Shown here: piece by piece, positions 2,717-36,441 of the stretch
Numbering within the stretch: the stretch's first letter is position 1
Layout: each line of letters begins with the position of its first letter
The notes under the pieces: generated by a model
The model's input: the letters and a program-made list of their open reading frames with translations, nothing else
Told to the model about the DNA's origin: nothing
The model's database searches: none
Assembly (NCBI GenBank): GCA_937948815.1
Contig: CALFAM010000167.1
Location: 1 to 42,064 of the forward strand
Direction of reading: 5' to 3'
Length of the DNA: 42,064 bases
DNA from: an uncultured bacterium
GTDB taxonomy: Bacteria; Acidobacteriota; Thermoanaerobaculia; Multivoradales; J023
Position numbers and translations under genes: made by a program

Positions 2717-2724
2717 GACCCATC

Positions 2725-14052: not shown

Positions 14053-15063
14053 TCAGTCGATGAGTGCGCGCCGCAGATCATCCAGGCGGCTCAGGTCACG
14101 CTCGAAGGCGACGGCGGCCACCGGGATCCTCTCGCAAAGCATGGCGCAGGCATCGAAATGGCGATCCAGCAACGTCGGCCAGAAGAGCTTGGCGGCCACG
14201 GTATGGCGAACCAAGGCCAGGGTCCCCTCGGTGACTGACATCATGGTGCGCTCGACCTGGTCGCGAACGGGCGATTCGTGGGTCAGCACGACGATCTGAT
14301 CGAATCGCTGGGGCTGCGCCGCGGGCCCGACCTGTTGCGCCGCAACGGCAAGCTTGAGCTGAGGATAGTCCGGTAGAGCGCGTGCGGTCCCTCCGCGGCA
14401 CGACCAGGGCAGGATGTCGTCCGCGAGGCGTGTACAGGGGTGGCCGCGACAGGCTGACAGATCGGCGACCAGCGTCGACTTCCCGACCCCGGAATGGCCG
14501 AGAAAAACCCGAACCTGCCCGCCCACCGATACCGCGCTGGCGTGAAAGCAGAAGATTCCACGGGCCGCCAAAGCCAGGATCAGTGCCGGACCGACCACCA
14601 ATGCATCGAGCAGGCCGTCTTCCGATACCGGGTCGTCGAGCCGCCAAATCCACCCTCCCGATCGAGCGATGGCAACCGAGGCACAAGAAGCTGTCGACAG
14701 GACGGTCCAGTCGTCCGACTCGCGGGCGATGAGGCGGCGATGCGCATGCGCCAGCCACACCTCATCGTGGAAGCGAACGGGCAGCGATGCGAGCTCGTGG
14801 AGCGCAGGCAGCGCTGGCGCGTGCCGATCCGGCCGTGGGCAACAACCCGACGAAGCTTCTTCGGGCGGGATCGAGAACGGTTCGAGGCTCGGTATTCGCA
14901 CGTCCGAGCAGATTGCCTGCCCGGCGACTCGGTAGTAGTTGTCGTCGAGAGGTTCGGGCGCGGAAGGATCAGCGCTCGTAAACGCATCGGCCGCGCGCCG
15001 CAGGACGATCGGTGGCGAGCCTTCCCCCGCCGACCATGCATTGGCAGCCACAGCCCGCTCCAC
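14053..15063 (-). CDS. HPr kinase/phosphorylase-like ATPase of a lasso-type RiPP locus
   Basis: This 336-aa protein has the C-terminal fold of HPr kinase/phosphorylase (HprK). HASAV at 174-178 precedes the P-loop GHSGVGKST (189-197), and RLADDILPW holds paired acidic metal-binding residues (Asp215, Asp216). The N-terminal 170 residues, starting NYYRVAGQAICSDVRIPSL, are not the HprK N-domain but match the layout of HprK-like proteins seen in lasso-peptide clusters. In paeninodin-type clusters such kinases phosphorylate the precursor C-terminus; here the target is unknown. The start is GTG at 15063, directly abutting the stop of precursor peptide 1 (TGA-GTG), so translation is likely coupled. 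No HPr or PTS gene is nearby, which argues against a carbon-control role. Confidence 0.75.
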   Translation of the reverse strand: MERAVAANAWSAGEGSPPIVLRRAADAFTSADPSAPEPLDDNYYRVAGQAICSDVRIPSLEPFSIPPEEASSGCCPRPDRHAPALPALHELASLPVRFHDEVWLAHAHRRLIARESDDWTVLSTASCASVAIARSGGWIWRLDDPVSEDGLLDALVVGPALILALAARGIFCFHASAVSVGGQVRVFLGHSGVGKSTLVADLSACRGHPCTRLADDILPWSCRGGTARALPDYPQLKLAVAAQQVGPAAQPQRFDQIVVLTHESPVRDQVERTMMSVTEGTLALVRHTVAAKLFWPTLLDRHFDACAMLCERIPVAAVAFERDLSRLDDLRRALID

Positions 15064-15258
15064 TCAGCGCCGTGGAGGAGCCGATGGTCCGACACCAGCA
15101 CGAAACAAGAGAGGCATGCCGCTTTCGCCAATCCCGTCCGATGGGCCCAGCGTGAGATCTCGGACGTCGCCATAGACGATCAGATGAGGCGACCGATACG
15201 GAAGCTTGCGAGAGCCCGCTGTGTCGGTCTGCGTTGGCAGCCGATTGGATTGCGTCAT
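15064..15258 (-). CDS. Lasso-type RiPP precursor peptide 1
   Basis: This 64-aa peptide has a leader of about 37 residues containing LPYRSPHLIVYGDVRDLT. That fits the lasso leader rule YxxPxLxxxGxxxxxT, which is bound by the RiPP recognition element, with Thr at position -2 of the core. The proposed core starts GPSDGIGESGMPLLFR and ends AGVGPSAPPRR, 27 residues in all. Gly1 and Glu8 are correctly spaced for an 8-residue macrolactam ring. The ATG has GAGGGA a few nucleotides upstream. The frame is open to 15450, but the extension has no homology to the second precursor. The peptide is strikingly similar to precursor 2 throughout the leader motif and core. Its stop abuts the HPr-kinase-like gene. 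A lasso fold is inferred, not shown, because no B1/B2 maturation gene is in the window. Confidence 0.8.
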   Translation of the reverse strand: MTQSNRLPTQTDTAGSRKLPYRSPHLIVYGDVRDLTLGPSDGIGESGMPLLFRAGVGPSAPPRR

Positions 15259-15793
15259 CGATCCCTCATCAACCCGAGACACGAGCCTCATCAGTGTATT
15301 CCGTGGCCAACGCATCTCGTCCGGCGCGCGCGGGGCACGGCAGTCCGACTCACCGTCGCGTGGCACTTTTCGCCCGTTATCCATACCAGCGCCCGGGAGC
15401 CAAGGAGAGAACGAAAGCAAGGAAGCATTGTCTGCATCGCAATCGCGCACATGCCAAGACGGTCTCGAATAACCGTTTCTTGGTCACGAGATGGCCCCCG
15501 AAGCGACGTACCGTTCGTACCAATAGCGTGCGAACGGTACCGCATTCTGCTTCTCAGGTCCAAAAGTCGACGTGCCGCCAGACTTGTCCTGACAGGAAAC
15601 AGGCGGACCAGCCGAAGATCGAGCCGTACCTGCATCACACCACCCAGGTGTGCCGACACGCCCACCTGATGTTGCGCGATGCCATGCTGTTGCATGGATC
15701 ATATCTTCAGTCACCACGAAAGACGATGGCCGTTCGTTTGCCCACACGACTCACCTCTCTGGTTCGATCATCAAGACTTGTTGACGCTCTGCT
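15259..15793. other. 535-nt gap between giant protein 1 and precursor 1
   Basis: No convincing coding region was found on either strand; open frames here have no recognisable domain, no good ribosome site and no counterpart near precursor 2. The gap holds one perfect 10-bp inverted repeat (15508-15540) and must contain whatever promoter or processing site serves precursor 1, if it is not read through from giant protein 1. Apart from the inverted repeat I see no clear promoter. Confidence 0.5.
15508..15540. repeat. Perfect 10-bp inverted repeat upstream of precursor 1
   Basis: GTACCGTTCG (15508-15517) and CGAACGGTAC (15531-15540) are exact reverse complements around a 13-nt spacer. The centre-to-centre distance is about 23 nt, or two helical turns. 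The site is 250 nt upstream of precursor 1 and 254 nt past the stop of giant protein 1. No T-run follows on the minus strand, so an operator or an RNA-processing hairpin is as likely as a terminator. Confidence 0.6.
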
Positions 15794-18700
15794 TCAAGGA
15801 AGAACCTCGAGGGTCGGGTCACCGAGCAAGGTCCAACCGATGAGCACGTCGAGCAAGCCCTCGGTGCCGGCATCGAATGCCAGATCACGTTTCGCTTCGA
15901 TGACCGCATCGCCCAAACGGCGCCCAGGTACCCTCAGCTCGGCAAAGAGGCGCAGACCGAGTCGACGCTCGCTCTCTGCCGTGGTCAATGTCGACGCACC
16001 GAGGACAGCGGCCGCTCCTTGATCGCCGCTGGTCATCAAACGATGGCCCAACGTCTCGCTCGATGGCGACACGTAGTAGGTGTTCCAACAACCCCACTGG
16101 GTGACGACGGCGGGGCGGCCGACATTGCCCAAGTTCGTTGAATCGGAAGCACGGAACAGACCCGAGAAGCTCCACACGGTCGGCCCCGAGTGGCCGAAGA
16201 AGCTGACCAGCGCCGCTCCTCGATCGAACGCGTCGAGCAGCTTCGTGCGGGCATCCGCCAGGCCGAGGTCGTCCATGTAGGCACGCTCGATCGTCCAGCC
16301 TTCACCCAGCAGAGCAGCGACCGCTTCGCTGTCTCGCCGGAACGAGTAAGCAGCGCCCCGATCGAACTCGTCCGCGGCCACGATGGCTGTACGGGCCGGC
16401 GTGGCTGTGGCATACGCCAGGGTCTTGGCCACCACACTGTCGAGCTCGGCCGCCGTGCGAACGGGGAAGCGGCCGACCGCGACCTCCGGAACACCATCGC
16501 CGTCGACGTCGCCGAACAGACTGTCCGCCGGGGCGAAGCGGACGATGTCGTCCGTCTGCGCATAGAGCGTGGGCACGAAGCTGATGGAGCCACTGGCGCC
16601 GAAGTTACGGTAGTCGTAGGTATCCGAGCCGACGAGCAGCACATAGCGGGTGCCCAGGTGCGCGACCGCATCAACCACCAACTCGCGAATCGCGACCGGG
16701 TCGAACACCCCGTGCCGATAGCGACCGAAGACATCGGCAACGTCCACGACACGTACCGTCAGTCCTTCCGCCCGGCGCGCCGCGACGAGAGGCGCGAGGC
16801 CATCGAGGAAGTCGCCATGACTGATGATCAGCAGCTCGGCGTCGCCTTTCAGAATCTCGCCGCCGAGACGTGCGGGTACGACTTCGGCCGTCCGCGCCTG
16901 ATCGAGCGAGGTCACCACGTACCGCGCGGTCTGCCCGAACGCGAGGCCAGGAACGTTGACCCGGTAGCCGAAGGCCGTCTCCGTCATCTCAGGATCGGTC
17001 AGCCTGCGCGTGCCGTCCGGGGCTTCGACCCAGATCACCACGTTCTCTCCGGTCAGGCCATCCACCGCCAGACTCCGACCGGCCAAGGTAGCGTCGAGCA
17101 GGCCGTCTCGTGCCCGTGTCAGGCGCGGATAGCGCACACTGAATCCCTCGAAATAGACCAGATCGACCGGCACGCCCGTATCGTGGGGAAGCACAACCTC
17201 GAGAACGTCAGTTCCGTCACCCGCCAGCAAGGCATCGCTCACCTCGAACGTATACGAGCGCGCGGTCAGCCCGTCGAAGACCTCGTCGGCCATGGTGATG
17301 CCGTTGACCCGAATCTCGACGTGATGGTCACCTTGCTGCGGCCAGTTGGTGACACCCCAGACGTCCGCCTGCACGGTCACGGGATGGCCACCCGGCTGCC
17401 AATCCTCGAGCACGAGGGGGAAACTCACCGCCACCGGTCCGCCAGCCGCCCGCAAGGATGTATCGAACCACGGATCACCATTGGGTGAGCCGAAGCTGTA
17501 GGACCGCTGGCGAGCAAAGCGATCCGTCTCGACATAGAACGGCTCGGGTCGGTGAATCGCCTGCGACGCCACCGCGGTGAACACCTCGATTGCGGCCGAT
17601 GGCTCTTCGGAAAGCCGATAGACCTCGGTCTGAGTGTAGAGATCGTCGCGTGCGTCCGCGACCCACTCGATCACCGAGCCTGGGCCGAAGATCGCGCCAC
17701 CGTCTACGAATCGCGGTACGGCCGTGCCGCCACGCGTCATCGCCAAGGATTCGCTCGGCACGCCGGCGAGATCGAGCCCTGCCGCAGCCAGGTCTTCGTA
17801 GCGGACACGATACAGGCCTGGTCGGTCGACCCGAAGATCGACGGCCGCCACGCTACCGACTTCGGGGCGACGCGCGTACGCTTGCTGACGGGCGCGATGA
17901 ACCGCGGGCCAGTCGATCGGCGCCGACCGCACCTTGGCGCCGTGAACCTCGAATGCTTTGAACGGGCCATGGAAACGAGACCGACCACGAATATCGACGT
18001 CCTCGAGCAGATAGGCATCGGCGGAGGTCATACCCGAGACGAAACGATAGGACTGCGGCAGCACTGAATCGACCACGGGTGAAGGCACCATCTCCGGGTT
18101 GATCCGCTGCCACCGCTGGGCTTCGCTGTCGAAGCGATAGAGATGGAAGCCGAGGTTGCCGACCTCGGTCTCGGTGCCCCACTCGAACACTTGGCCATCG
18201 GTCTCGAAGTACGCCAGGGTCACCGGATTGGTGATCGTGCCGCCGTCGAAGAAGCCGAAGTCATTGTCGACCGAGTCCGCACCCGCCAAGGTAACGGGCT
18301 GAACGCCACCACTCCCGGTCTGCGTCGTCTGCCGATAGCCATCCACGGACGAGCCTCCCGTGTCGACCTGGACGACGTAGTCACCATCCGGCAGGTCCGT
18401 GAAGGAATAGTCGCCATTGACGTCTGCCGTGGTGGTGCCGATGAACACGGTCATGCCATCGACGACCCGGAAGAGGTCGACCGTCACACCCATCACCGGA
18501 AGCTCATCGGGCTGGTCGTAGAGGCCATCCTCGTCGGCATCCTCGAAGATCGTGCCCGAGATGTCGTTGCCAGCGGCCAGGAAGTAGCCAAAGTCGGCCG
18601 TCTCGTTGTTCGGAGCGATGTCCGTCAGGGTGACCGCATAGGGATCCGCCTGACTCGTGTTGTCCACCCCAGGCATGCCGCCATCGGTGAGTGTGAAGCC

Positions 18701-21700
18701 GGCTGTCACCCCAGCGGTATCGGTGACGTCGACGATGTAGTCGCCGGGCACCAACCCAGTGAAGGCGTACTCGCCGTTGGCACCTGTGGTCTCGGTACGC
18801 AAGAGGTTGTCGACTCCCGGCGTGATGACGCCGTCATTGTCGACGTCGAGCCACAGGTCGACCGTCACACCCTGCAGACCGCTCTCGCCGGCATCGAACG
18901 TTCCACCGCCGTCGAGGTCGCGCCACACCTGACTGCCGATCGAGCCGATGCCACCGGATGGCGCGTAGCCAAAGTCCGCCGTATCGAAATCTTGACCGGC
19001 AGCGAGCGTGATCATGCCCACCGGTGCTGAGGAAAGATTCAGCCCCGCCAGCACGCCATCGATGTCACTCACAGCCACGGAATAGGTGCCGGCAGGAACG
19101 CCGGTGAAGTCATAGCCGCCTTGATCGTCGGTCGTCGTCGTTGCGATGATCGCGCCGCCGACGTCGAGCAGATTGACCGTGACACCGGCGATCCCTGGCT
19201 CGCCACCGTCCTCGACACCATCACCATCCTCGTCCAACCAAATGGTGTCGCCAATCGAGCCGAAGGTGCCGCCGGCGAAGCCCCAATCCAGGAAGTAGTA
19301 GTCGACGTCCGCTTCGACCATGAGCTGATATGTGACGTCGGCATTGGTCGGCGTGGTGGAAACGCCAGCAGGCAGCGTCGAGGTATCCACCGTTGCGAAG
19401 TACTCGCCCGGTGCCAGACCCGGCACCAGCCAGGTGCCGTCAGCACCCGTGGTGACGGTGAAGTTCCCGGACGGCCCGCTCACCGTCACGTCGACACCCG
19501 GAATTCCGAGCTCGCCGGGATCCTGCACGCCATCGCTGTCGAGGTCGAACCAGACGGTATCGCCCACGGCACTGCCGGTGGTCGCCTGGTAGCCGAAGTC
19601 CGCATCATCGAAATTCTCGCCCTCGGACAGCAGGACCACCGCGGAAGGATCGACGCCCATCGGGTAGGTGGTCTCCGAGAAGCCCGTGGGCAGGGTCGAC
19701 TCATCGACATCGACGAAGTAGCTGCCCGGCGCCAGGCCGTCGAAGACATAGCCGCCATTGGCATCAGTAACCGTCGTCCCGAGCAAGACATCGTCACCGC
19801 CGCCGATCACACCGTCCGGGCCGGCATCGAAGAGCTCGAGGGTGACCCCAGCGAGCCCCGGCTCGGAAGACCCTTCGACACCATCTCGATCCGCGTCGAG
19901 CCACAGGACGTCGCCGATCGAGGCCGTGTCCGGATTGCGCGCATAGCCGAAGTCGACGTCCATGACATCGGCACCGGCAATGGTCGCCGGCAGGGCATCG
20001 AGACCCGAGGTGAGCTGGTAGTTCTCCAACACGCCGTTCTGATCCGTCACCACGACGCTGTAGTCACCATCCGCGAGATCCGGGAAGGTGTAGTTGCCCA
20101 TCGCATCCGTGGAGGTGGTCGCGAGCACCACGCCCGCGGTGTTGCGGAGCTCCACAGTCACGCCGGTGAAGCCCGGATCGCCGGCCTCCTCGAGACCATC
20201 GGCATCCAGATCCTCGAAAACGGTTCCCGAGAGATCGGGCAGGCTCGCGTTTTGGTAACCGAAGTCGAGACTGAGATCACTCTGATTGAAGTCGAGGACG
20301 ACTGTCGACTGGCTGTCGGCCGTCCCATCGGGATCACCGGTCAATGCGTAACCGGCCGGCAGCGTCGCCACGTCGACCCGGACCGAATACTGCTCCGGCG
20401 CCAGACCTTCGAACAGGTAGTTGCCAGCCGCATCAGTCGTGGTCGTGGCGATGACCATGCCACCACGATCGAGCAACTCGATCGTCACGCCGGGTAGTCC
20501 CGTCTCCCCGGCATCTTGAACACCATCGCCATCGGCATCGTTCCAGATGCGGTCACCAAGCGTGCCCACTGCGTTGAAACCGAAGTTGACGCCGGAAACG
20601 TCGGACGTTGTGATGGTCACCGACTGCGCGCGACTCTGCGCAGGCGTCGTCGTTCCACCCAGTCCAACCAAGACACCGGCGTTGTCCGACACGGACAAGG
20701 TGTACGAGCCCGGCGGCAGCCCTGCGAAGGAGACCGTGCCGTCGCTCGCCGAGGTGGTCGTGGCCACCACGTTGCCGCCGGCGTCCAGCAAGTCGATGGT
20801 CACACCCTCGAGACGCGGTTCGTCGCTGTCGAGATTGCCGTCCGCATCGAGATCCAACCAGAAGACGTCATCAACGGCAAAGGTCGCTGTCGGCGCGTCG
20901 AAACCAAAGTCGACGTCGAGCACGACCTCGCCAGCTCCGACCGTCAAGGGAGCACTGATCGCGCCACCTTCACTCTGCGGCCCGGTGGTCGCATTGAAGC
21001 CTTCGAGGGTGCCGCCGGTGCCCAGCTCGGCGGCCGCGATGCGAACGGTGTACTCACCGGGAGTGACGCCAGCGAAGAGGTACGAGCCATCGCTTCCCGT
21101 CGTCGTCGTGGCCACGACCGCGCCAGTGCCGTCGATCAATTCGACATCCACTCCGGCCAAGCCAATCTCACCTGCGTCCTGAACACCGTCCGCGTCCGCA
21201 TCCGACCACACAAAGTCACCGATGATGGCCGACGCGGGGTCCGCGTTGCTGTAGCCAAAGTCGACATCCAAAAACACTTCTTCCGCCGTGATCGTCACCA
21301 CGCTGCTCGGATCGGTCGTGCCAGGTGATGTGGCGAGCCCACTTGGCAGGGTCGCGCCATCGACATCGACGTAGTAGGTGCCAGGTGACAGGCGATCGAA
21401 AAGGTAGTTGCCATTGGCATCCGTCGTCACGGTTCCCGCCGAGACGTCGTCGCCACCGCCCGGCATACCGTCCGGCCCGGCGTCGAACAGCTCGACGGTC
21501 ACATTCGCCAGACCCGGCTCACCGAGTTCTTGTACGCCATCACCGTCGACATCCAGCCACACACGATCACCGATCACACCACCGCGGCTCACCGGATCGA
21601 CCACGGTCGCGACCACCGGGAACGGCTGCTGGATGCTCGACGCAAAGGCGGTATTCACCACCGACGTCGTGTTGATGTCGAGTGGGTCGGCGACCTGAAC

Positions 21701-24700
21701 CTGATACGTGATCGTCATCGCCTGGGCAGGCTGCAGCTCAAACTCGTCGGGCGCGAGCACCAGATTCGTGGGTATACCGTCCAGCAGCGGACTGACTGCC
21801 GCCGCGGTGTTGGTCTTCACTTCGGCGACGGTGCTCTGCCCACGCACTACGAGCTGGCTGCGCAAGAACGTTCCGTCGTCGGCGCCGACGAAGGTGTCGC
21901 AGATTTCCAACTGCCAGGTACCGGTCACGACCTCGCCGGCGAAGGCTGAAAGCGCATTGCTCGGTTCCACGGAACGATCGAAGAAGGGTGCGGTCGTGTC
22001 ATCCGCGGAGCCGTCGTTGAGCGCACCTGCACCCGTCGTCAGCAATACGTCATAGTTGTCATTACCGTCCGCGCCAGACGTCGCGATGACGATCACGCGA
22101 GTGCCTGCGGGCGACTCGAGCGTGGCCTGAATATCACCTCGGAATACATGATCCGAAGAGAAGCCGAGGTCGAGACTGACCAGGGCAAACGTGTCGGTCA
22201 CCGCAAAGGTACGCACCAGCGGCGTGGTGCACGGCGTGGCACTGCTGATCACACCTGTTGTCGTGTTGTCATAGGTCGAGCTGAGCTCGCCCGCGATAAA
22301 GCCAGACACGGACGTGCTCTCGGCCACGTACGCGACCCCGGTCGGCAACGTGTCCAAGACCTTGAGCCCTCGGTGCACGACACCCGCGGTATTGGAGATC
22401 GAGAGCGTATAGGTGATGACATCTCCAGGCTGGACATCACCGCCCGCATCCGACACCTTGGTCAGCGCGAGCTCTGGATCACCGACCGGAACATCCGTCG
22501 TATCCGTTTCGACATCCGGTCCCGCTCGCACTTCGACCACGTTCGACAATCCCTCGACGCCACCGGGAAAGGGTGAGTCGACGGTCACGTTGAAGGTCAC
22601 CACCACGACCTGATCGATGGCCAGCGCACCGAGCGAAATGCCACCTTCATCGAGCGGGAAGACCGTCGTTCCAGTCCCATCGTCCGCCAGCGCGACACCG
22701 TCGACTTCTGTGGTCATCGGCACGTAATCGACATTGACATCGAGCCCCGTATCTTCGAGCTCGCTGGTCGGAACGATCGCATCGGACACATTGGTCACCG
22801 TGATCGTGTACTGAATCGTCTCACCGGGATCGATTCCGCCGTCGCCATCCACGTCATCGATCAGCAGTCCCTCCTTGACCACGCGCACGCGAGTAATCGG
22901 CAAGACTGTCGTACCAAGATCGAGCGCCGGCGCTGCTGGACTGGCGGTGATCGGATCCTGTCCCCATGCGGCCGTGATCAACGTGCCATCGAGGGTGTAG
23001 ATGCGCGCGCCACTCTGGTCACCGTCTCCGGTATCGAAAAGCTGAATCGACTCGAGATTCTCGATCGGTACGAGCTGGTCGTACCGATTCCCCTGTGCAT
23101 CAATCAACGTGCCGGTCGTCGGATCCCCGTCGAAGTCGACAAAAAGATCGGTCATGGCATTCGCCGTAACCCAAATCGGACTCCCATTTTCCGTCGGATT
23201 GGTCGCAGAGGTCGGATCACGTCCGGGTGCCCACCCCACCACCAGCGTGGTGGTCAGGTTGTCTTCCGGAAGCAACGTGAAGCCCCAATCGTGGGCGGTG
23301 GTCAGGAAGTCGACTGCCGTGACGGCGAAGAATGGCTCTTCCGTGGCGGTAAAGAAGTGACCACCCGAGTCGGGGGGCATGGTGAATGTCGCAACGTCGC
23401 CCGCCGGAACCGATACCGTTCCCGAAACGACCGTCGGCGCGCCGGTGGCTTGCGTGATGTCGAGACGTGCCCGCTGAAAAGTTCCGTTATCCGAGCCAGT
23501 AAACGTGTCACAGACCTCGAGTGTCCACGTCCCTGCTGGGTCTTCTCCGGAGAATCCTCCCAAGCTGTTCGATGGCGCGGCGGTTCGGTCATAGAAGGGC
23601 GCAGCCGTGTTGTCCACCGTTCCGTCATTGATCGCGGCGGCCGAAGCACCATCGAGCAGGAGATCGTAGTTGTCGTTGCCGTCACCACCATTGCTCGCGA
23701 TCGCGACCACCCGCGTGCCGGATGGCGACTCGAGGGTCACTTGAATATCGCCACGGAAAACATGGTCAGCCACAAAGCCCAGCTGAACGGATTCGACGGC
23801 CGTCGTCGAGGCAAAGGCAAAGGTTCTCACCAAGGGGGCAGCGCAGGTCGTCGTGCCATCGATCGTTCCCGGAGTCGTATTCTCGACGCTGGTCGTCGCC
23901 GTCATCACCTGCAGCGTCTCGTGGGTCACGGTGATCGCCGAGGTCCCCGGGTTATAGAGCGTCACCGTGGTCGGCGTCCCATCACTGGCCGAACCGACCG
24001 GGTTGAAGTAGCTGTCGCTCCACTCTTCGGTCGGCACCATGCTGTACCAACGGCCCGCGAAGCTCGAAGCACGGTCGCCCGTCAGGAGATGGGCCTCGAT
24101 GGGATCAGACGAAGTGAAAACAGACCCTGTGACGACTCCTTGAATCAAGGTGTTCTCGCCCGGCCCGAGCCGCCGAACCTCGTCGACGGTGCCATCACCG
24201 TCGAGGTAGATCTCGAGGATGGCACCCAACTCGGCGGCTGTGATGCTCGCGGCGACGAACTCGTAGGCCACGTCGGGCAGGTCTTCCCCGACCGGTGCCT
24301 CGAAACGCGTCCCCCAATCGATGGTCGGAAAGACCTCGACCGCGCCTGCTAACAGAGTGCCCTCTTGCAGACGCCAGCCGCCTCGGGTCACTGCAATTTG
24401 ATTGGAGGCGCCGATGCGATCACGGGCGTCGAAGAGGATGACCCCGGAATCACGCGGATTGGCCGGCACGTCGTTCTCGAGCACCGAAAAGTCTCCGGCA
24501 TCGAGATTGATGATCTGCGTCGACGCTTGAACGGGATTCTCGAGATCTGCCTCGAAGCCATCCTCCCAATGGTCGTACGTCACGACCGTCCCGTCGGAGG
24601 TCGACGAGAGCGAAATCACGGTATGCGCGGTATCTGAAGCAGGCGGGGTGGGCGCCGCGGCGTTGATCGCCTCCGCGAGCGTTAGTACGTGGGACTCGTC

Positions 24701-25229: not shown

Positions 25230-25433
25230 TCAGCGGCGGGGCGGCCCGGACGGCCCGACCCCGCTCACCCGAAACAGGAGGGGCATGCCACTCTCGCCGA
25301 TCCCTTCCGAAGGCCCCATGGTGAGCGCCCGCACATCGCCGTAGAACGAGATGTGCGGTGAACGATAGGGTCTTCGGTCGGTGGCGGCGGAGTCCGCCGA
25401 GGCCACGGGCCGTTGTGTGGAATCTTGCTTCAT
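25230..25433 (-). CDS. Lasso-type RiPP precursor peptide 2
   Basis: This 67-aa peptide has a leader of about 39 residues with RPYRSPHISFYGDVRALT. It matches the lasso leader rule YxxPxxxxxGxxxxLT, with Thr at -2, though Ile replaces the usual Leu after Pro. The proposed core starts GPSEGIGESGMPLLFR and ends VSGVGPSGPPRR, 28 residues in all. Gly1 and Glu8 could close an 8-residue ring; Glu4 is also acidic but would make too small a ring. GAGGA lies about 6 nt before the ATG. It starts 24 nt after the stop of the cyclase-like gene, so the two are surely cotranscribed. The N-terminal leader differs from precursor 1, while the binding motif and core are nearly identical, which implies selection on the product. 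Function and processing are unproven. Confidence 0.82.
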   Translation of the reverse strand: MKQDSTQRPVASADSAATDRRPYRSPHISFYGDVRALTMGPSEGIGESGMPLLFRVSGVGPSGPPRR

Positions 25434-25457
25434 CTAGTCCTCGCCAGGCCGAAAAGG

Positions 25458-27353: not shown

Positions 27354-27360
27354 CGCCACC

Positions 27361-27366
27361 CCTCCC
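27361..27366 (-). promoter_or_regulatory. Shine-Dalgarno site fixing the cyclase start
   Basis: GGGAGG on the minus strand is 7 nt from TTG 27353 and 1 nt from GTG 27359. Normal spacing and family alignment (MSG-x-A) both favour the TTG start. Confidence 0.65.
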
Positions 27367-27396
27367 TGCGAGCGTTTGCTCGCACACGCCTTCTGC

Positions 27397-30300
27397 TCAA
27401 GGTACGACCTCGAGCGTTGGATCGCCGAGCAGCGTCCAGCCGATCAGCACGTCGAGCAACCCATCGGTTCCGGCATCCTGGGCGAGATCGCGCTTGGCTT
27501 CGACCACGGCGTCACCCAGGCGACGCCCGGGCACCATCAACTCGGCGAACACCCGCAGACCAAGGCGCCGCTCGCTCTCCGCTGTGGTCAGGGTCGATGC
27601 GCCGAGCACTGCCGCCGCACCGCGATCTCCACTGGTCAGGAAACGATGGCCCAAGGTCTGGCTCGATGGCGACACGTAGTACGTGTTCCAGCAGCCCCAT
27701 TGGGTCACGACCGCAGGGCGGCCGACGTTGCCGAGTCCCAACGCATCCGTGGCCGTGAACAAGCCGGAGAAGCTCCACACGGTCGGTCCAGAGTGACCGA
27801 AGAAGCTGACCAGCGCAGCGCCCTGATCAAACTCATCGATCAGCTTGGTGCGCGCACCTGCGACTCCGAGATCATCGACGTAGGCACGTTCGACGCTCCA
27901 GTTCTCACCGAGTAGCGAAACCAATGCCTCACTGTCGCGGCGGAAGGAGTAGTCGCCTGGGCGGTCGAAGCCATCCGCGGCAAGGACCGCCGTCCGCACA
28001 GGCGTCGCGACCGCGTACGCCAGGGTCTTGGCCACGATGCTGTCGAGCTCTTCACGGGTTCGCGCCGGGAAGCGTCCGACCGCGATTTCGGGAACGGCAT
28101 CTCCGTCCAGATCACCGAAGAGGCTGTCCGCGGGGGCGAACCGCACGATGTCGTCGGTCTGGGCGTAGAGCGTCGGCACGAAGCTCAGCGAGCCGGTGCC
28201 ACCAAAGTCTCGGTAGTCGTAGGTATCGGAACCGACCAGCAACACGTAGCGCGTGCGGAGCTCGTTTGCGGCCTCCGCCACGAAAGCGCGTATCGCTTCG
28301 GGGTCGAAGACACCGTGGCTGTAGCGGCCGAAGACCTCGGCCACATCCACGACGCGTACCGTCAGCCCTTGCGCCTGGCGCGCGGCCACCAACGGCGCCA
28401 AGCCATCGATGAAGTCCCCGTGCGAGATGATCAACAGCTCGGCCGGACCGACCAACAGATCATCACCCGTCCGGGCCGGCACGACCTTGGGCGAGCGCGC
28501 CTGGTCGAGCGTCGTGACCACGTAGCGTGCGATCTGCCCGCGAGACGTTCCGGGCACCGCGGCAATATAGCCGGCCGGGCCGAAGGCCCCGACCGGGTCG
28601 CTGAGCCGACGCGTGCCGTGGAAATCCTCGACCCAGATGACGACATCATCACTCGTCAAGCCTCGAACCGCCAGACTGCCGCCGTCGAGGGTCACGTCGA
28701 GCAAGCCGTCGCGCGCCACGGTCGCCCGGGGATACCGCAGGCTGAAGCCCTCGAAGTAAACCAGGTCGATCGGCACGCCCGTGTCGTGGGGCAGGATGAT
28801 CTCGAGCACGTCGGAGCCGTCTCCGGCGAGCAGAGAATCATCGATCTCGAAGGCGTAGGACCGTGCGGTCAGGCCGTCGAAGACGTCATCGGCCATGGGT
28901 ACGCCATTGACCTCGACGACCACGTGGTGATCCCCGGCCTGCGGCCAGTTGGTGACACCCCAGACATCGACCTGCATCGACACCTGGCCCGTCCCCGGCT
29001 GCCAGTCGTCGAGGGTCAGCGGGAAGCTGATCGAGACCGGACCGGAGCTGGCCCGCATCGTCGTATCGAACCACGGATCGCCATTCGGCGAGCCGAAGCT
29101 ATAGGAACGCTGGCGGGCGAAGCGGTCGGTCTCGAGGTACGCCGGAACCGGTCGTTCGACGACCTCTCCAGCAACCGCGGTCGCGGTTTCGATGACCTGC
29201 CCACTGTCGGTCGAAAGGCGGTAGACCTCGGTGTCGGTGTAGAGATCGTCACGGCCCTCGGCCACCCACTCGATCACCGAGCCTGGCCCGAAGACTCCCG
29301 GACCGTCGATGAAGCGCGGCACGGCTGAGCCACCCCGCGTCAGGGAGATGGCGCCGGCTCGCCGACCCGCGAGATCGAGCCCTGCGGCGGCGATTTCCTC
29401 GTAGGTCACCCGGTAGAGCCCCGGCTCGCTGACCAGCAGATCGACCGCGTCGAGAACCAGTGACTTGCTGCGCAGTGCCGCATCGCGGGTTCGGCGAATC
29501 TCTCGCTGCGCCTGCTCGTGCGCCGCGCGCACACCCGACCAGTCGATCGGCTCGGTCCGAATCGGCTCACCGTGGATCTCGAAGGGGGTGAACGGTCCAT
29601 GGAAGCGCGACCGACCGCGCAGGTCGACATCTTCGACCAGGTAGGCATCGCCGAGACCGTCCGCCGACTCGTAGTGATAGCGCTGCGGAATCACCGAATC
29701 GACCACGCGGGAATCCACCATCTCGCCGTTGATGCGGCTCCAGCGATCAGACGCCTTCTCGTAGCGGTAGAGGTGGAATCCGAGGTTGCCGACTTCGGTC
29801 TCGGTCTCCCAGGTGAACGTCTGACCGTCGGTCTCGAAGTAGGCCAGGGTCACCGGATTGGTGATGACGCCACCGTCGAAGAAGCCGAAGTCGTTGTCCA
29901 CCGAGTCAGCCCCCGCCAGGGTCACCGGCTGCACGCCACCCGTCGTGGTCTGGGTCGTCTGGCGGAAGCCATCGACCGGCGAACCGCTGCCGACCACCTC
30001 GACCACGTAGTCACCATCCGGCAGGTCGAGGAAGGCGTAGTCGCCATTGACGTCAGTGGTCGTGGTGCCGATGAAGACCGCCGAACCGCCGACCACGCGG
30101 AAGAGATTGACCGTGACGCCCTCCACCGGCAGCTCGTCAGGCTGGTCGTAGTCGCCATCTTCGTTGGCGTCTTCGAAGACCGTGCCCAGGATGTCGTTGC
30201 CAGCCCCAGGAGCCACGAAGTAGCCGAAGTCCGCCGTCTCGTTGCTCGGCGCCGCGTCGGTCAGGGTCACGGCATAGGGATCGACCTGACTGGTGTTGTC

Positions 30301-33300
30301 AACGCCCGGCATACCGCCGTTCGTCAGGGTGAAGCCGTCCACCACGCCAGCCGTGTCCGTGACATCGACGATGTAGTCACCCGGAACCAGGCCGGTGAAC
30401 TCGTACTCGCCGTTGGCGTTGGTCGTCTCCGTGCGCAGGAGATTGTCGACGCCCGGCGTGATCGCGCCGTCGCCGTTGACGTCGAGCCAGAGGTCGACGG
30501 TAACGCCCTGGAGACCGCCCTCCCCGCTGTCGAGAATGCCGTCACCATCGAGGTCACGCCACACCAGGCTGCCGATCGAGCCGATGCCGCCCGAGGGCGC
30601 ATAGCCGAAGTCCGCGGCATCGAAGTCCTGACCTGCGGCCAGCATGATCGTGCCGACCGGCGGCGAAGACAGGTTGAGTCCGGCCAGAACGCCGCCGATG
30701 TCGCTGACCGCGACGGTGTAGTCACCGGCCGGAACGCCCGTGAAGTCATAGTTGCCCTGATCATCCGTGACGGCCGTGGCGATGATCACGCCGCCCGCGT
30801 CGAGCAGGTTGACGGTGACCCCTTCGATCCCCGGCTCGCCAGCGTTCTCGACGCCGTCGCCGTTCTCGTCCAGCCAAATCGTGTCGCCGATCGAGCCGAA
30901 GGTACCGCCGTCGAAACCCCAGTCCAGGAAGTAGTAGTCCGAGCCAGCCTCGACATCGAGTTGGTACGTCACGTCGCCGTTGGTCGGCGTGGTGTTGACG
31001 CCGGCCGGCAAGGTGCTGGTCTGGACGGTGGCGAAGTACTCACCCGGCGCCAAGCCCGGCAGCAGCCAGGTTCCGTCGGGGCCGGTGGTCACGGTGAAGT
31101 TGCCCGACGGGCCACTGACCACCACATCGACACCCGGAATTCCCAGCTCGCCCGGGTCCTGCACACCGTTGCCGTCGAGGTCGTACCAGACGGTATCTCC
31201 AAGCGCGCTGCCGACGTTCGCGACGTAGCCAAAGTCGGCATCGTCGAAGTCTTCGCCTTCGGACAGCGGGATCACCCCAGACGGGTCGACTCCGACCGGA
31301 TACGTGGTCTCGGCAAAGCCTGTGGGCAGTGTCGTCTCGTCGACGTCGACGAAGTAGTTGCCCGGCGCCAGGTCCGGGAAGACATAGCCGCCGTCAGCAT
31401 CGGTCACTGTGGTGCCCACGAGGACGTCGTCGCCACCACCGATAACACCGTCGGGGCCGGCGTCGAAGAGCTCGAGGGTAACCCCGGAAAGGCCTGGCTC
31501 GGACGCTCCTTGGGTGCCGTCACGATCGGAATCCAGCCACAGCACATCGCCGATCGAAGCGGTGTCGGGATTGCGTGCATAGCCGAAGTCGATGTCCATC
31601 ACATCCGCGCCGGCGATGGTGACCGGCAGGGCGTCGAGCCCGGATGTGAGCTGGTAGTTCTCGAGCACACCAGCCTGATCCGTGACCGCCACCGTGTAGT
31701 CGCCGTCCGCCAGGTCCGGGAAGCTGTAGTTGCCCGAGCCGTCGGTCGTCGTGGTCGCGATCACCGTGCCGCTCGCATCGATCAAGTCGACCGTGACACC
31801 GGCGAACCCGGGCTCACCACCTTCTTCGAGACCATCGGCATCGAGATCCTCGAACACCGTGCCCGAGAGGTCGGGCAAGCTGCTGTTCTGGTAGCCGAAG
31901 TCGAGACTCAGGTCACTCTGGCCGAGCTCGAGGGTCACACTCGACTGGCTGTCCGCCGTGGCATCGGGGTCACCGGTGAGCGCATAGCCCGCCGGCAGGG
32001 TCGAGACGTCGACCCGCACGGTGTACTCGTCGGGCGACAGCCCTTCGAACCCGTAGTTGCCAGCGGCGTCGGTCGTCGTAGTGCCGATGACCACGCCATT
32101 GCGATCGAGCAGCTCGACCGTGACGCCAGGCAAGCCGGTCTCACCCGGATCCTGCACGCCGTCGCCGTTGGCGTCGTTCCAGATGCGATCGCCCAAGGTA
32201 CCGATCGCGTTGTAGCCGAAGTTGACGCCCGAGACGTCCGCGGCGGTAATCGTCACCGGCAGCTGACGATTCTGGGCCGGGGTGGTGGTGCCACCGAGGC
32301 CGACCAGCGCGCCGCCATTGTCCGACACCGAGAGCGTGTACGAGCCCGGCGGCAGGCCACCGAATTCGACCGTGCCGTCGGCAGCCGAGATCGCAGTCGC
32401 GATGATGTTGCCGCTGCCGTCGAGGAGATCCACTGACACTCCTTCGAGGCGTGGCTCGTCAGCGTCGAGGGCGCCATCGCCATCAAGGTCGAGCCAGAAC
32501 ACGTCGTCGACCGAGAAGGTGCCGGCCGGGTTGGTGTAGCCGAAGTCGACATCGAGCACGGTCGCGCCCGCACCGACTGTCACCGGTGCGCTGATCGGTC
32601 CACCTTCGCTCTGCGGCCCGGTGGTGGCGGTGAATCCTTCGAGCGAGCCACCGACGCCGAGCTCCGGCGCGGCGATCCGCACGGTGTACTCGCCCGGTGC
32701 TACGCCAGCAAAGAGGTAGAAGCCGTCGCTGCCGGTGGTCGTCGTCGCGACCACGGCACCCGTACTGTCGACCAGTTCCATGTCGACCCCGCCGAGGCCG
32801 ATTTCACCCGCATCCTGGGCGCCGTCGCCATCCGCGTCGGACCAGACGAAGTCACCGATGATCGCGGCGTTGGGATCGGCGTTGCGGTAGCCGAAGTCGA
32901 CGTCGAGAATCTCCTCCTCAGCCGTGATGATCACCACGCTGCTCGGATCCGAGGTACCCGGCGAAGCCGCCAGACCACTCGGCAGGGTGGCGTCGTCAAC
33001 CGCCACGAAGTAGTCGCCCGGAGAGAGACGGTCGAAGAGATAGTTACCGTTGGCGTCGGTCGTCGCCGTGCCGATCAGCACGTCGTTGCCGCCACCGGGC
33101 ACGCCGTCGGGCCCCGGATCGAAGAGCTGCACCGTGACGTTGGCGAGACCTGGCTCGCCAAGGTCCTGCACGCCGTCACCGTCGACATCGAGCCAGACCC
33201 GATCACCGATCACGCCGCCTCGCGAAACCGGGTCGACCACGGTCGCGACGACCGGGAAGGGCTGCTGAATGCTCGATGCGAAGGCCGTATTGACCACGGC

Positions 33301-36300
33301 CGTGGTGTTGATGTCGAGCGGATCCGAAACCTGAACCTGGTAGGTGATGGTCATCGCCTGCGCCGGCTGCAGCTCGAATGCATCCGGCGCGAGGACCAGG
33401 TTGCCGGGGATTCCATCGAGCAGCGGATTGATCGCTGCGGCGCCGTTGGTCTTCACCTGGGAAACCGAGGACTCTCCACGGACCACGAGCTGGCTGCGCA
33501 AGTAGGTGCCGTCGTCGGCGCCAACGAAGGTGTCGCAGACTTCGAGATTCCAGGTTCCAGACGGGTTCTCACCGAAGAACGGGCTGAAAGCGTTGCTGGG
33601 CCGGACCTCACGGTCGAAGAAAGGCGCCGCCGTGTTGTCGGCGTTGCCATCATCGAGGCGGCCCGGAACACCGTCGACCAAGCGGACGTCGTAGTTGTCG
33701 TCGCCGTCGGCACCCGAGGTCGCGATGAGGGTCACGCGGGTTCCCGTCGGCGACTCGAGCACGATCTGTATGTCGCCACGGAAGGCATGGTCCGCGGAGA
33801 AACCGAGCTCGACAGCGGTCAAGGCGAAGGTGTCGGTGACCGCGAAGGTGCGGACCAACGGCGTGGTGCACGGTGTCGTCGCACCGAGCACGCCCGTCGT
33901 CGTGTTGTCGTAGGTCGAGCTCAGCAGGCCGACCACGAAGCCGGAAACGGAAGTGCTCTCGGCTACGTACGACGTGCCGGCGGGCAAGGCATCTTCGACC
34001 TTGAGGCCGCGGTGAATCACACCAGCCGTGTTGGTGACCGACAACGTATAGGTGACGACGTCGCCAGGCTGCAGATCGCCCACCGCGTCCGAAACCTTGG
34101 TGAGCATCAACTCGGGGTCGCCCACCGGTACATCCGTGGTGTCGGTCTCGACGTCGGGTCCGGCCCGCACCTCGACCACGTTGGCCAAAGCGTCGACGCC
34201 ACCCGGGAAGGGATCGTCGACGATCGCGTTGAAGGTCACGACCACCACCTGATCGAGGACCAGGGCGCCGAGAGAGATCCCGCCCTCGTCGAGCGGGAAC
34301 ACCGTGGCGCCGACGGTGTCGTCGGCGAAGGCCGCTCCGTCGACCTCCGTGGTTCCAGGCACGTAGTCGACGTTCGGATCGAGGCCGGTGTCTTCGAGCT
34401 CGGCGGTCGGAATCACTGCGTCGGAGACGTTGGTCACGGTGATCGTGTATTGAATGGTCTCGCCAGGATCGATCCCGCCATCGCCATCGATGTCGTCGAC
34501 CAACACGCCTTCCTTGATCACCCGCACACGGGTGATCGGCAGGACCGTCGTGCCGAGGTCGAGACCAGGCGCGGCACCGCTGGCGGTGACCGGATCCTGG
34601 CCCCAGGCCGCGGTGATCAACGTGCCGTCGAGGGTGTAGATGCGCGCACCGCTCTGGTCGCCGTCACCGGTGTCGAATAGCTTCACCGACTCCAGGTTGT
34701 TGATCGGTACGAGCTGGTCGTAGCGATTCCCTTCGCTGTCGATCAAGGCACCCGTGGTCGGGTCGCCGTCGAAGTCGACGAAGAGGTCGGTGGCCGCCGT
34801 TGCGGTCACCCAGATCGGACTGCCGTTCTCGGTCGGGTTGGTCGCCGAGGTCGGATCGCGTCCCGGTGCCCAACCGACCACGAGCGTGGTGGTCAGATTC
34901 TCCTCGGGCAGCATCGCGAAGCCCCAGTCGTGGCCCGTGTCGTCGATGTCGGTGGCCGTCAGTGCGAGGAAGGACTCATTCGAAGCCGTGAAGAAGTGTC
35001 CGCCTGAATCCACCGGCATGGTGAACTCCGAGACACCGCCAGCCGGTACCGAAACGGTGCCGCTGACGATCGCGGCAGCACCCGTGATCTGTTCGAGATC
35101 GAGCCGGGCGCGCAAGAAGTTGCCATCATCGGCCCCCGCGAACACGTCGCAGATCTCGAGGTTCCAGGTGCCAGACGGATTCTCGCCGGCGAAGACTCCG
35201 AGGCTGTTCGACGGCGCGGCCAGGCGGTCGTAGAACGGCGCCGCGGTGTTGTCCGGACCGCCGTCGTCGATGGCGTTGGTCGACGCACCATCGAGAAGCA
35301 GATCGTAGTTGTCGTCGCCATCGCCACCATTGCTGGCGATCGCCACCACGCGCGTGCCGGCCGGCGACTCCAGGGTCACCTGGATGTCTCCGCGGAAGGC
35401 GTGGTTGGCGACGAAGCCGAGCTCCACGCCCGCCACCTCATTCGCCGAAGCAACATTGAAGGTGCGCACCAGGGGTGCCGCGCAGGTCGTGGCGCCGTCG
35501 ACGACACCGGCGGTGGTGTTCTCGAAGCTGGTGGTGGCGGTCGGGGTCTGGAGGGTCTCGTGCGTGACCGTGATCGCGCTGGTGCCGGGGTTGTAGAGCA
35601 GCACCGCGGTCGGCGTGCCGTCCGACGCCGAGCCCACTGAGTTGTAGTAGCTGTCACTCCATTGCTCGAGCGGCACGAGGCTGTACCAGCGTCCAGCAAA
35701 GTTGGAGTTGCGGTCACCCGTCAGGAGATGAACCTGAACTGGATCGGACGAAGTGAAAGATGCGCCCGTGACGACGTCGAGAATCAAGGTGTTCTCACCA
35801 GGGCCGAGGCGACGGACCTCATCGACGATATCGTCACCGTCCAGGTCGATCTCGAGAACGGCACCGAACTCGGAGGCCGACACCGAGGCGGTCACGAGCT
35901 CGAAGGCGTTGTCGGGGAGATTCTCGCCGATCGGGGCTTCGAACTTCGTCCCCCAGTCGACGGTCGGGAAGACTTCGACCGCGCCAGCGAGCAAGGTGCC
36001 TTCTTGAAGGCGCCAACCGGCCCGGGTGACCGCCACCTGATTGGAGGCGCCCACCCGGTCCCGGGCGTCGAACAAGATGACAGCCGGGTCGCGCGGGTTG
36101 GCGGGGACATCGTTCTCGAGCACCGAGAAGTCACCCGCATCGAGGTTGATGATCTGGGTCGTCACCTGAACCGGGTTGGTGAGGTCGAGCTCGAAGCCGT
36201 CTTCCCAGTGGTCGTAGGTGATCACGGTGCCGTCGGCGATCGACGAGATCGAGATCACGGTGCGCACCGTGTCCGATGCCGGCGGCGTCGGCGCGGCCGC

Positions 36301-36441
36301 GTTGACCGCGCTTGCCTGGGTGAGGACGTGCGATTCGTCCACCGGGATGAAGTAAGTCTGAACGGGCTGCCCGAACGCCGGCATCGCCGTGGCGAGAATG
36401 AATACAAGGGCGGCATACCGACCCGTTCGCTGTGGACTCAT
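27397..36441 (-). CDS. Giant secreted SdrD-repeat protein with C-terminal C25 (gingipain-type) peptidase, copy 2
   Basis: This 3014-aa paralogue of the protein at 15794-24802 is similar from signal peptide to last residue. The signal peptide is RYAALVFILATAMPAFG. A beta-rich N-terminal region, two P-like domains (starting PLVRTF), DUF11-like domains (starting LMLTKVSDAVGDLQPGD) and ten SdrD_B-like repeats (about 1073-2190) follow. A pre-peptidase region leads to a C25 peptidase from about 2667, with His2883 (FFGHSG) and Cys2917 (QWGCWN). The chain ends GWTLLGDPTLEVVP with no anchor or type IX sorting domain. It is therefore released, or held by an unknown means. The ATG has AGAAGGA upstream. 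It is the first gene of the minus-strand run that continues into the cyclase and precursor 2. Its third codon positions look richer in G/C than those of copy 1. Confidence 0.9.
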   Translation of the reverse strand: MSPQRTGRYAALVFILATAMPAFGQPVQTYFIPVDESHVLTQASAVNAAAPTPPASDTVRTVISISSIADGTVITYDHWEDGFELDLTNPVQVTTQIINLDAGDFSVLENDVPANPRDPAVILFDARDRVGASNQVAVTRAGWRLQEGTLLAGAVEVFPTVDWGTKFEAPIGENLPDNAFELVTASVSASEFGAVLEIDLDGDDIVDEVRRLGPGENTLILDVVTGASFTSSDPVQVHLLTGDRNSNFAGRWYSLVPLEQWSDSYYNSVGSASDGTPTAVLLYNPGTSAITVTHETLQTPTATTSFENTTAGVVDGATTCAAPLVRTFNVASANEVAGVELGFVANHAFRGDIQVTLESPAGTRVVAIASNGGDGDDNYDLLLDGASTNAIDDGGPDNTAAPFYDRLAAPSNSLGVFAGENPSGTWNLEICDVFAGADDGNFLRARLDLEQITGAAAIVSGTVSVPAGGVSEFTMPVDSGGHFFTASNESFLALTATDIDDTGHDWGFAMLPEENLTTTLVVGWAPGRDPTSATNPTENGSPIWVTATAATDLFVDFDGDPTTGALIDSEGNRYDQLVPINNLESVKLFDTGDGDQSGARIYTLDGTLITAAWGQDPVTASGAAPGLDLGTTVLPITRVRVIKEGVLVDDIDGDGGIDPGETIQYTITVTNVSDAVIPTAELEDTGLDPNVDYVPGTTEVDGAAFADDTVGATVFPLDEGGISLGALVLDQVVVVTFNAIVDDPFPGGVDALANVVEVRAGPDVETDTTDVPVGDPELMLTKVSDAVGDLQPGDVVTYTLSVTNTAGVIHRGLKVEDALPAGTSYVAESTSVSGFVVGLLSSTYDNTTTGVLGATTPCTTPLVRTFAVTDTFALTAVELGFSADHAFRGDIQIVLESPTGTRVTLIATSGADGDDNYDVRLVDGVPGRLDDGNADNTAAPFFDREVRPSNAFSPFFGENPSGTWNLEVCDTFVGADDGTYLRSQLVVRGESSVSQVKTNGAAAINPLLDGIPGNLVLAPDAFELQPAQAMTITYQVQVSDPLDINTTAVVNTAFASSIQQPFPVVATVVDPVSRGGVIGDRVWLDVDGDGVQDLGEPGLANVTVQLFDPGPDGVPGGGNDVLIGTATTDANGNYLFDRLSPGDYFVAVDDATLPSGLAASPGTSDPSSVVIITAEEEILDVDFGYRNADPNAAIIGDFVWSDADGDGAQDAGEIGLGGVDMELVDSTGAVVATTTTGSDGFYLFAGVAPGEYTVRIAAPELGVGGSLEGFTATTGPQSEGGPISAPVTVGAGATVLDVDFGYTNPAGTFSVDDVFWLDLDGDGALDADEPRLEGVSVDLLDGSGNIIATAISAADGTVEFGGLPPGSYTLSVSDNGGALVGLGGTTTPAQNRQLPVTITAADVSGVNFGYNAIGTLGDRIWNDANGDGVQDPGETGLPGVTVELLDRNGVVIGTTTTDAAGNYGFEGLSPDEYTVRVDVSTLPAGYALTGDPDATADSQSSVTLELGQSDLSLDFGYQNSSLPDLSGTVFEDLDADGLEEGGEPGFAGVTVDLIDASGTVIATTTTDGSGNYSFPDLADGDYTVAVTDQAGVLENYQLTSGLDALPVTIAGADVMDIDFGYARNPDTASIGDVLWLDSDRDGTQGASEPGLSGVTLELFDAGPDGVIGGGDDVLVGTTVTDADGGYVFPDLAPGNYFVDVDETTLPTGFAETTYPVGVDPSGVIPLSEGEDFDDADFGYVANVGSALGDTVWYDLDGNGVQDPGELGIPGVDVVVSGPSGNFTVTTGPDGTWLLPGLAPGEYFATVQTSTLPAGVNTTPTNGDVTYQLDVEAGSDYYFLDWGFDGGTFGSIGDTIWLDENGDGVENAGEPGIEGVTVNLLDAGGVIIATAVTDDQGNYDFTGVPAGDYTVAVSDIGGVLAGLNLSSPPVGTIMLAAGQDFDAADFGYAPSGGIGSIGSLVWRDLDGDGILDSGEGGLQGVTVDLWLDVNGDGAITPGVDNLLRTETTNANGEYEFTGLVPGDYIVDVTDTAGVVDGFTLTNGGMPGVDNTSQVDPYAVTLTDAAPSNETADFGYFVAPGAGNDILGTVFEDANEDGDYDQPDELPVEGVTVNLFRVVGGSAVFIGTTTTDVNGDYAFLDLPDGDYVVEVVGSGSPVDGFRQTTQTTTGGVQPVTLAGADSVDNDFGFFDGGVITNPVTLAYFETDGQTFTWETETEVGNLGFHLYRYEKASDRWSRINGEMVDSRVVDSVIPQRYHYESADGLGDAYLVEDVDLRGRSRFHGPFTPFEIHGEPIRTEPIDWSGVRAAHEQAQREIRRTRDAALRSKSLVLDAVDLLVSEPGLYRVTYEEIAAAGLDLAGRRAGAISLTRGGSAVPRFIDGPGVFGPGSVIEWVAEGRDDLYTDTEVYRLSTDSGQVIETATAVAGEVVERPVPAYLETDRFARQRSYSFGSPNGDPWFDTTMRASSGPVSISFPLTLDDWQPGTGQVSMQVDVWGVTNWPQAGDHHVVVEVNGVPMADDVFDGLTARSYAFEIDDSLLAGDGSDVLEIILPHDTGVPIDLVYFEGFSLRYPRATVARDGLLDVTLDGGSLAVRGLTSDDVVIWVEDFHGTRRLSDPVGAFGPAGYIAAVPGTSRGQIARYVVTTLDQARSPKVVPARTGDDLLVGPAELLIISHGDFIDGLAPLVAARQAQGLTVRVVDVAEVFGRYSHGVFDPEAIRAFVAEAANELRTRYVLLVGSDTYDYRDFGGTGSLSFVPTLYAQTDDIVRFAPADSLFGDLDGDAVPEIAVGRFPARTREELDSIVAKTLAYAVATPVRTAVLAADGFDRPGDYSFRRDSEALVSLLGENWSVERAYVDDLGVAGARTKLIDEFDQGAALVSFFGHSGPTVWSFSGLFTATDALGLGNVGRPAVVTQWGCWNTYYVSPSSQTLGHRFLTSGDRGAAAVLGASTLTTAESERRLGLRVFAELMVPGRRLGDAVVEAKRDLAQDAGTDGLLDVLIGWTLLGDPTLEVVP
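29872..33222 (-). repeat. Ten SdrD_B-like repeats in giant protein 2
   Basis: Ten units of about 110 residues each start with a variant of IGDxxWxDxDGDGVQDxGExGLxGV. Order and divergence match the ten units of giant protein 1, so the array was complete before the gene duplicated. Confidence 0.85.

Follow-up and report, generated by a model that had tools for sequence, protein, structure and literature searches.

The DNA analyzed here (the window, 42,064 nucleotides) is a contig, CALFAM010000167.1 of GenBank assembly GCA_937948815.1, from an uncultured bacterium of the order Multivoradales (Acidobacteriota, class Thermoanaerobaculia). It comes from a metagenome-assembled genome (MAG) that is 82% complete and comprises 371 contigs totalling 6.5 Mb. 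The minus strand encodes, in reading order, a giant protein with a gingipain-like peptidase domain (giant 1), a lasso cyclase, lasso precursor A, a second giant (giant 2), lasso precursor B, and an HprK-like kinase. This one-strand arrangement of two giants, a cyclase, two precursors, and a kinase was described in the original prediction and is confirmed by the gene calls.

Giant 1 (3,014 residues, positions 27397-36441) and giant 2 (3,002 residues, 15794-24802, with a TTG start as listed) are paralogues that share 79.0% identity over 3,002 aligned residues. Each contains 10 SdrD_B stretches, two P-domains, and a C-terminal Peptidase_C25 domain (Pfam); the N terminus of giant 1, as judged by eye, resembles a signal peptide. 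The C25 domains occupy residues 2670-3012 of giant 1 (27406-28434; Pfam E value, 3.8e-63; catalytic-type His2883 and Cys2917) and 2658-3000 of giant 2 (15803-16831; 2.5e-60; His2871 and Cys2905), with scores of 214 and 205 bits against a cut-off of 23. The His and Cys residues are invariant in alignments of 12 and of 24 sequences and align with the catalytic pair of gingipain, which places both domains, as far as sequence can tell, in peptidase family C25. Sequence searches with the C25 region return PorU as the closest match and the gingipains next. An AlphaFold model of this region, built from 24 sequences, has a pLDDT of 89.2 and a pTM of 0.86; in fold searches with the model, PorU comes first by E value and gingipain R gives a TMt of 0.66; structural alignment with these two proteins gives 15 to 20% identity. 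The giants are thus predicted to be secreted C25 peptidases whose catalytic motifs are intact and look competent. A search for C25 relatives on plasmids turned up two weak matches.

The cyclase homologue (633 residues, 25458-27359) is of the asparagine-synthetase type, as indicated by its SGGLDS motif and its matches to Asn_synthase (101 bits) and to the lasso cyclase model NF033535 (E value of 1.6e-92, under the curated cut-off of that model). Precursor A (67 residues, 25230-25433; core, 25233-25316, GPSEGIGESGMPLLFRVSGVGPSGPPRR) follows it after 24 nucleotides and therefore lies about 2 kb past giant 1. Precursor B (64 residues, 15064-15258; core, 15067-15147, GPSDGIGESGMPLLFRAGVGPSAPPRR), for which the ATG at 15258 was chosen within a listed open reading frame (ORF) of 128 residues, starts 535 nucleotides after giant 2. 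The suggestion that each precursor lies directly or nearly directly downstream of a giant thus holds for precursor B; precursor A directly follows the cyclase instead. Both have a leader of the form YxxPxLxxxG..T(-2) and a core with Gly1, Ser3, and Glu8, an acidic residue within the range of core positions 7 to 9 expected of lasso precursors, and are accordingly predicted to be such. They share 42 of 64 residues, the changes being mostly in the N-terminal part of the leader. The longer ORF of precursor B reaches 18 bits against the lasso leader family NF033521 (cut-off, 19), and precursor A alone matches no family at 0.01.

The HprK-like kinase (336 residues, 14053-15063), whose start directly abuts the stop codon of precursor B, matches HprK_rel_A weakly (E value of 0.0064). 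Its His174, GxxGxGKS (189-196), and Asp215-Asp216 reproduce the pattern of residues described for BsfK; together with the Ser/Thr target in the core, these motifs make it a probable lasso precursor kinase of the PadeK/BsfK type. The accessible text of the report on the bsf cluster of Bradymonas sediminis describes phosphorylation of core Ser3 by BsfK (PMC10368454).

Just downstream of the kinase gene, on the same strand, are genes for a LytS-type histidine kinase and a LytTR response regulator (11917-13943). The response regulator ORF, as listed, includes a 15-base tandem repeat (12711-12776; 4.4 copies, 98% match). The pair was considered as a conserved receptor and set aside, as a comparison with the related loci L034-L078 gave no match at 1e-5. 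Promoter and terminator patterns are no more frequent in the intergenic gaps than in shuffled sequence.

Recurrence of the pairing in other genomes

The original prediction proposed a search of other genomes for C25 giants next to lasso genes, and the pairing does recur, in Acidobacteriota, Chloroflexota, and a few Gammaproteobacteria. A related cyclase (E value of at most 1e-30) is present in 31 of the 59 genomes of the order, the source genome included. When cyclases of at least 170 bits (n = 25) and C25 matches of at least 300 bits (n = 35) are compared across these 59 genomes, 12 of the 25 cyclases lie no more than 10 kb from a C25 giant; random placement would give 0.14 such pairs. Chance is ruled out as the cause of this linkage.

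A wider scan of species genomes was seeded with the C25 alignment and covered the best 80 of 112 matches, of which 79 loci were kept; its two patterns favour near kin, and some of its loci are the same contigs as those of the order relatives. A giant was called linked if a cyclase or a lasso-type precursor lies within 5 kb of its ORF. Among 84 C25 domains judged in this way, the two in the window included, 37 are linked, 23 are unlinked, and 24 are without flanking sequence; in the scan alone, with the window's two excluded, a lasso cyclase or precursor stands beside 35 of the 58 assessable giants. The numbers of linked, unlinked, and unassessable domains are 20, 2, and 1 in Chloroflexota, 11, 2, and 4 in Acidobacteriota, 4, 17, and 17 in Pseudomonadota, and 0, 2, and 2 in other phyla. 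A wide occurrence of homologous giants away from any precursor or cyclase had been named in advance as evidence against a distinct system. This is partly the case: such giants prevail in Pseudomonadota (17 of 21 assessable) and are also found in Thermoanaerobaculia; in Chloroflexota (20 of 22) and Acidobacteriota (11 of 13), most assessable giants are linked.

The gene order is often conserved as well. A same-strand cyclase match starts within 500 nucleotides past the C25 match in 22 scan loci and likewise for giant 1. Several Anaerolineae encode giant, cyclase, precursor, kinase, B1 (RRE/PqqD), and B2 (leader peptidase) consecutively, and of 19 linked loci in Chloroflexota, 12 have B1 and/or B2 no farther than 6 kb away; the B2 of L157 exceeds the curated cut-off. 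In L155, the precursor comes directly after the giant and before the kinase, like precursor B in the window.

Two further groups of C25 loci deserve mention. L126-L130, L133-L137, and L139 encode more distant C25 proteins (about 230 to 340 bits), with genes for PqqD-like RRE proteins within 6 kb in these 11 loci. No cyclase was found for them within the linkage survey, and the nine loci that were checked gave no cyclase match; they possibly represent another RRE-linked system. L103-L104 (contig C43 of G010) are two tandem giants of the same family with no recognised lasso gene nearby, and the gap between them encodes a secreted-looking DUF11-like repeat protein.

Precursor cores and joint history of the genes

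The precursors of the window-type loci (class A, n = 42) were picked by their leader and their proximity to lasso or C25 genes, never by the core. Asp or Glu occupies core position 8 in 38 of them and position 9 in three more (L048, L159, and L183), that is, position 8 or 9 in 41 of 42; Gly1 and a Ser or Thr at position 3 are each found in 40 of 42. The remaining case, L174 (3074-13781), combines a giant, precursor, kinase, B1, and B2 with no local cyclase, its core has no acidic residue at positions 7 to 9, and its genome contains a lasso locus elsewhere. We treat it as an anecdote, because the genome of L172 keeps a precursor with Asp8 beside a giant and has no cyclase at an E value of at most 1e-20, and because of that other lasso locus of L174.

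A search with a profile built from 16 precursors yields 362 homologous precursors. In this set, where the core was part of the selection, all 119 readable cores among the 120 homologues listed have Asp or Glu at position 8 and Ser at position 9. Some of these proteins have already been named lasso leader-containing proteins by NCBI; the precursors as such are therefore not unknown, and it is the pairing with the giant that seems new.

Giant and precursor are each present twice in the window, which has a single cyclase gene and a single kinase gene; in the tree, the two C25 domains group as sisters. The stretch from giant 2 to precursor B shows no remnant of a cyclase, and no convincing kinase remnant was found between precursor A and giant 2; the best match, of the kinase to the gap before precursor B (E value of 0.003), has an internal stop and is unconvincing. 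Giant and precursor were duplicated here as a unit, and the cyclase was not. A giant and a precursor with no cyclase in the available sequence are also seen in L107 (G016), L112 (G027), and L120 (G021), the contigs of L107 and L112 ending within the giant; L111, with a giant and a precursor, is too short to judge.

Distance matrices of cyclases and C25 domains from 35 loci correlate with r = 0.74, the maximum of 1,000 label shuffles being 0.41; part of this correlation is common descent. For both proteins of L049 (Acidobacteriota) and L170 (Gammaproteobacteria), the nearest neighbours are from Chloroflexota, which suggests transfer of the genes across phyla as a unit, with misbinning as a possible alternative. 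In a tree built from 83 C25 domains, for which 25 domains of the order relatives were picked by hand and unassessable ones were left out, 14 changes account for the lasso label, compared with a mean of 27.6 for shuffled labels, and none of 500 shuffles is as low.

Maturation and possible role of the peptides

The locus had been described as lasso type with recognised parts, and this stands for the cyclase, the precursors, and the kinase. The set in the window is incomplete: neither B1 nor B2 was found among the scanned window proteins or, by whole-genome search, on the contig. The lasso B2 model gives only matches below the cut-off across the MAG, and the single match above the Pfam cut-off sits in a 516-residue protein unlike B2. 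Such gaps could mean that the system is decaying in this genome, with B1 and B2 lost and the peptides no longer produced. We consider this highly improbable: the MAG is only 82% complete, the cores and catalytic motifs are intact, and in relatives such as G010, G012, G018, and G020 the B2 gene lies on a contig apart from the giant-linked or class A cyclase. More generally, among the 30 relatives in the order that have a related cyclase, 23 have a B2 above the cut-off, and the best B2 is on a contig other than that of the class A cyclase in G005, G010, G012, G013, G018, G020, G027, G031, and G046. Because of this frequent separation, the window locus is probably served by B1 and B2 in trans. 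The C25 domain as a stand-in for the missing B2 was set aside, since removal of lasso leaders takes place in the cytoplasm, the giants look secreted (a signal peptide by eye), and B1 and B2 adjoin the giant in Anaerolineae.

The MAG has two PqqD-type matches, one of which belongs to a second lasso locus (L083, contig C215, 2-9796). This locus encodes a partial SdrD_B protein, a PqqD-type B1, a cyclase, a precursor with a different core type, and an HprK homologue, with a methyltransferase-like ORF at the contig end.

Three features, the pairing, the joint duplication, and the near constancy of the ring, point to a peptide that acts on its giant or together with it, and this partnership is well supported. 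We favour, with less than even confidence, a system of two precursor-giant pairs with one cyclase and one kinase, in which each finished peptide binds the peptidase domain of its partner and inhibits or restricts its activity. That the peptide inhibits the giant we infer less firmly than the partnership, and this is the least certain step. In such a pathway, B1 and B2 encoded elsewhere would cleave off the leader just past Thr(-2) and the residue that follows it, the kinase would phosphorylate Ser3, by the precedent of BsfK acting on BsfA, and the cyclase would join Gly1 to the side chain of Glu8, giving a threaded ring of eight residues. The neutral monoisotopic masses predicted for the products are 2774.429 Da (A) and 2659.365 Da (B), or 2854.395 and 2739.332 Da in phosphorylated form, ring closure taking away 18.011 Da and phosphorylation adding 79.966 Da. 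The peptide would then be exported, and outside the cytoplasm the conserved ring with its variable tail would engage the C25 domain. Gingipains are specific for Arg and Lys, and an Arg or Lys at core position 15 or 16 might serve as a substrate-like element for an Arg/Lys-type C25 enzyme. The staphopain/staphostatin pair, a protease with an adjacent cognate inhibitor that is an ordinary protein, provides a working analogy; we know of no lasso peptide that acts as an adjacent-encoded protease inhibitor. A broader and more doubtful version takes a phospho-lasso peptide as the built-in lock of a giant gingipain-like protease, in a module that would duplicate and travel across phyla with its maturation enzymes shared.

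The same features of the cores could be read differently, with the peptide as the substrate whose variable tail the C25 enzyme would trim after export, or which it would open like a lasso isopeptidase. The adjacency of giant and precursor, the conserved ring followed by tails of 7 to 39 residues, and the first Arg or Lys after the ring at core position 15 or 16 in 19 of 40 cores all fit this idea. It is nevertheless rather unlikely, as a single processing enzyme would suffice for two nearly identical cores, yet the giant was copied along with the precursor, and 13 of the 40 cores have no Arg or Lys beyond the ring, a fact that also counts against the favoured inhibitor.

A number of other observations weigh against that inhibitory pairing as well. 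Of the ten neighbour proteins that were scanned, none was recognised as an exporter; the trees have long branches and were made in quick modes, and MAG contigs are prone to misbinning. G029 and G034 have B1 and B2 beside the cyclase, so that their split location is no rule. The absence of a cyclase match in L172, noted above, belongs here too, as do the 23 of 60 assessable giants with no lasso genes nearby. Among the order relatives, C25 domains of at least 200 bits are linked in 15 cases, unlinked in 36 (36 of the 51 assessable), and unassessable in four; these are mostly distant paralogues. The distribution of the system is patchy: among 61 genomes of the order to which G062 belongs, only the query genome itself has a cyclase at an E value of at most 1e-60, and the same-genus genome G001 has no cyclase match at 1e-30.

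Also against the favoured reading, two of the lasso loci, L041 and L043, have a peptide and a cyclase and no giant in the surrounding 20 kb, with C25 giants elsewhere in both genomes. They would fit simple co-expression, in which an antimicrobial lasso peptide and a digestive protease are made jointly, for example in predation, and never make contact; secreted proteases and antimicrobials are often co-regulated. The recurrence of the gene order across phyla, the joint duplication of the pair, and the nearly fixed ring speak against this explanation, which appears improbable.

Class B lasso loci of the order, which have different cores, also adjoin SdrD_B-type giants, and the SdrD_B repeats of the example in the source genome are confirmed by Pfam. 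Their cores have Asp at position 8 in only 12 of 18 rows, one of which is probably no precursor, and no C25 match was seen in the class B giants, several of which are contig fragments. The link may therefore partly concern the repeat protein and not the peptidase. This favours a giant that would act as a surface scaffold or receptor, its SdrD_B part displaying, anchoring, or delivering the peptide and its C25 domain serving as a PorU-like maturation or attachment enzyme, in keeping with PorU as the top match in sequence and structure. Genes of the surface-polysaccharide type (DUF4012, TMEM260-like, and Wzz/kinase-like) adjoin some Anaerolineae operons and would suit such a role, but in the loci compared these families are not conserved outside Anaerolineae, and we regard a scaffold as unlikely.

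Comparison with known systems

For most lasso peptides, the function in the producing organism is unknown. The present family, whose ring is almost invariant, has a named molecular partner amenable to expression and assay, so that its role can be tested directly. The loci would also form a distinct kind of lasso cluster, from little-studied phyla, in which a giant peptidase is present, an exporter is not recognised, and the maturation genes sometimes lie on another contig. The pairing of lasso precursors with giant peptidases had been put forward as an undescribed arrangement, and full-text literature searches, judged by titles and the openings of abstracts and mostly outside subscription papers, returned no description of it. 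The available part of one paper on Thermoanaerobaculia treats lanthipeptides and does not contain the word lasso (PMC13083261).

The closest known relatives are the bsf (PMC10368454) and paeninodin (PMC8498205) clusters, which in the accessible parts of their reports likewise combine a lasso precursor, a cyclase, and an HprK-like kinase, and have B1 and B2 as separate genes, as do the relatives of the window locus. The Ser3 that is the phosphorylation target in bsf corresponds to the conserved Ser/Thr3 of the cores described here (PMC10368454, in the part available). Those same parts describe both clusters with a transporter gene and make no mention of a giant C25 protein (PMC10368454; PMC8498205), whereas in the window-type loci the giant is the constant neighbour and an exporter is not recognised. 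Lasso clusters with a dedicated isopeptidase, such as those mentioned in the accessible text of PMC8498205, offer another parallel, in that there, too, the peptide has a hydrolase of its own.

The catalytic domain of the giants resembles the gingipains and PorU of Porphyromonas gingivalis by Pfam assignment, sequence search, and fold. The likeness to PorU is one of sequence and fold alone and is no proof of a role in a type IX secretion system. To our knowledge, lasso isopeptidases are neither C25 peptidases nor giant repeat proteins. Unlike the gingipains and PorU, the C25 domain in these loci ends a 3,000-residue SdrD_B repeat protein that is encoded beside lasso genes.

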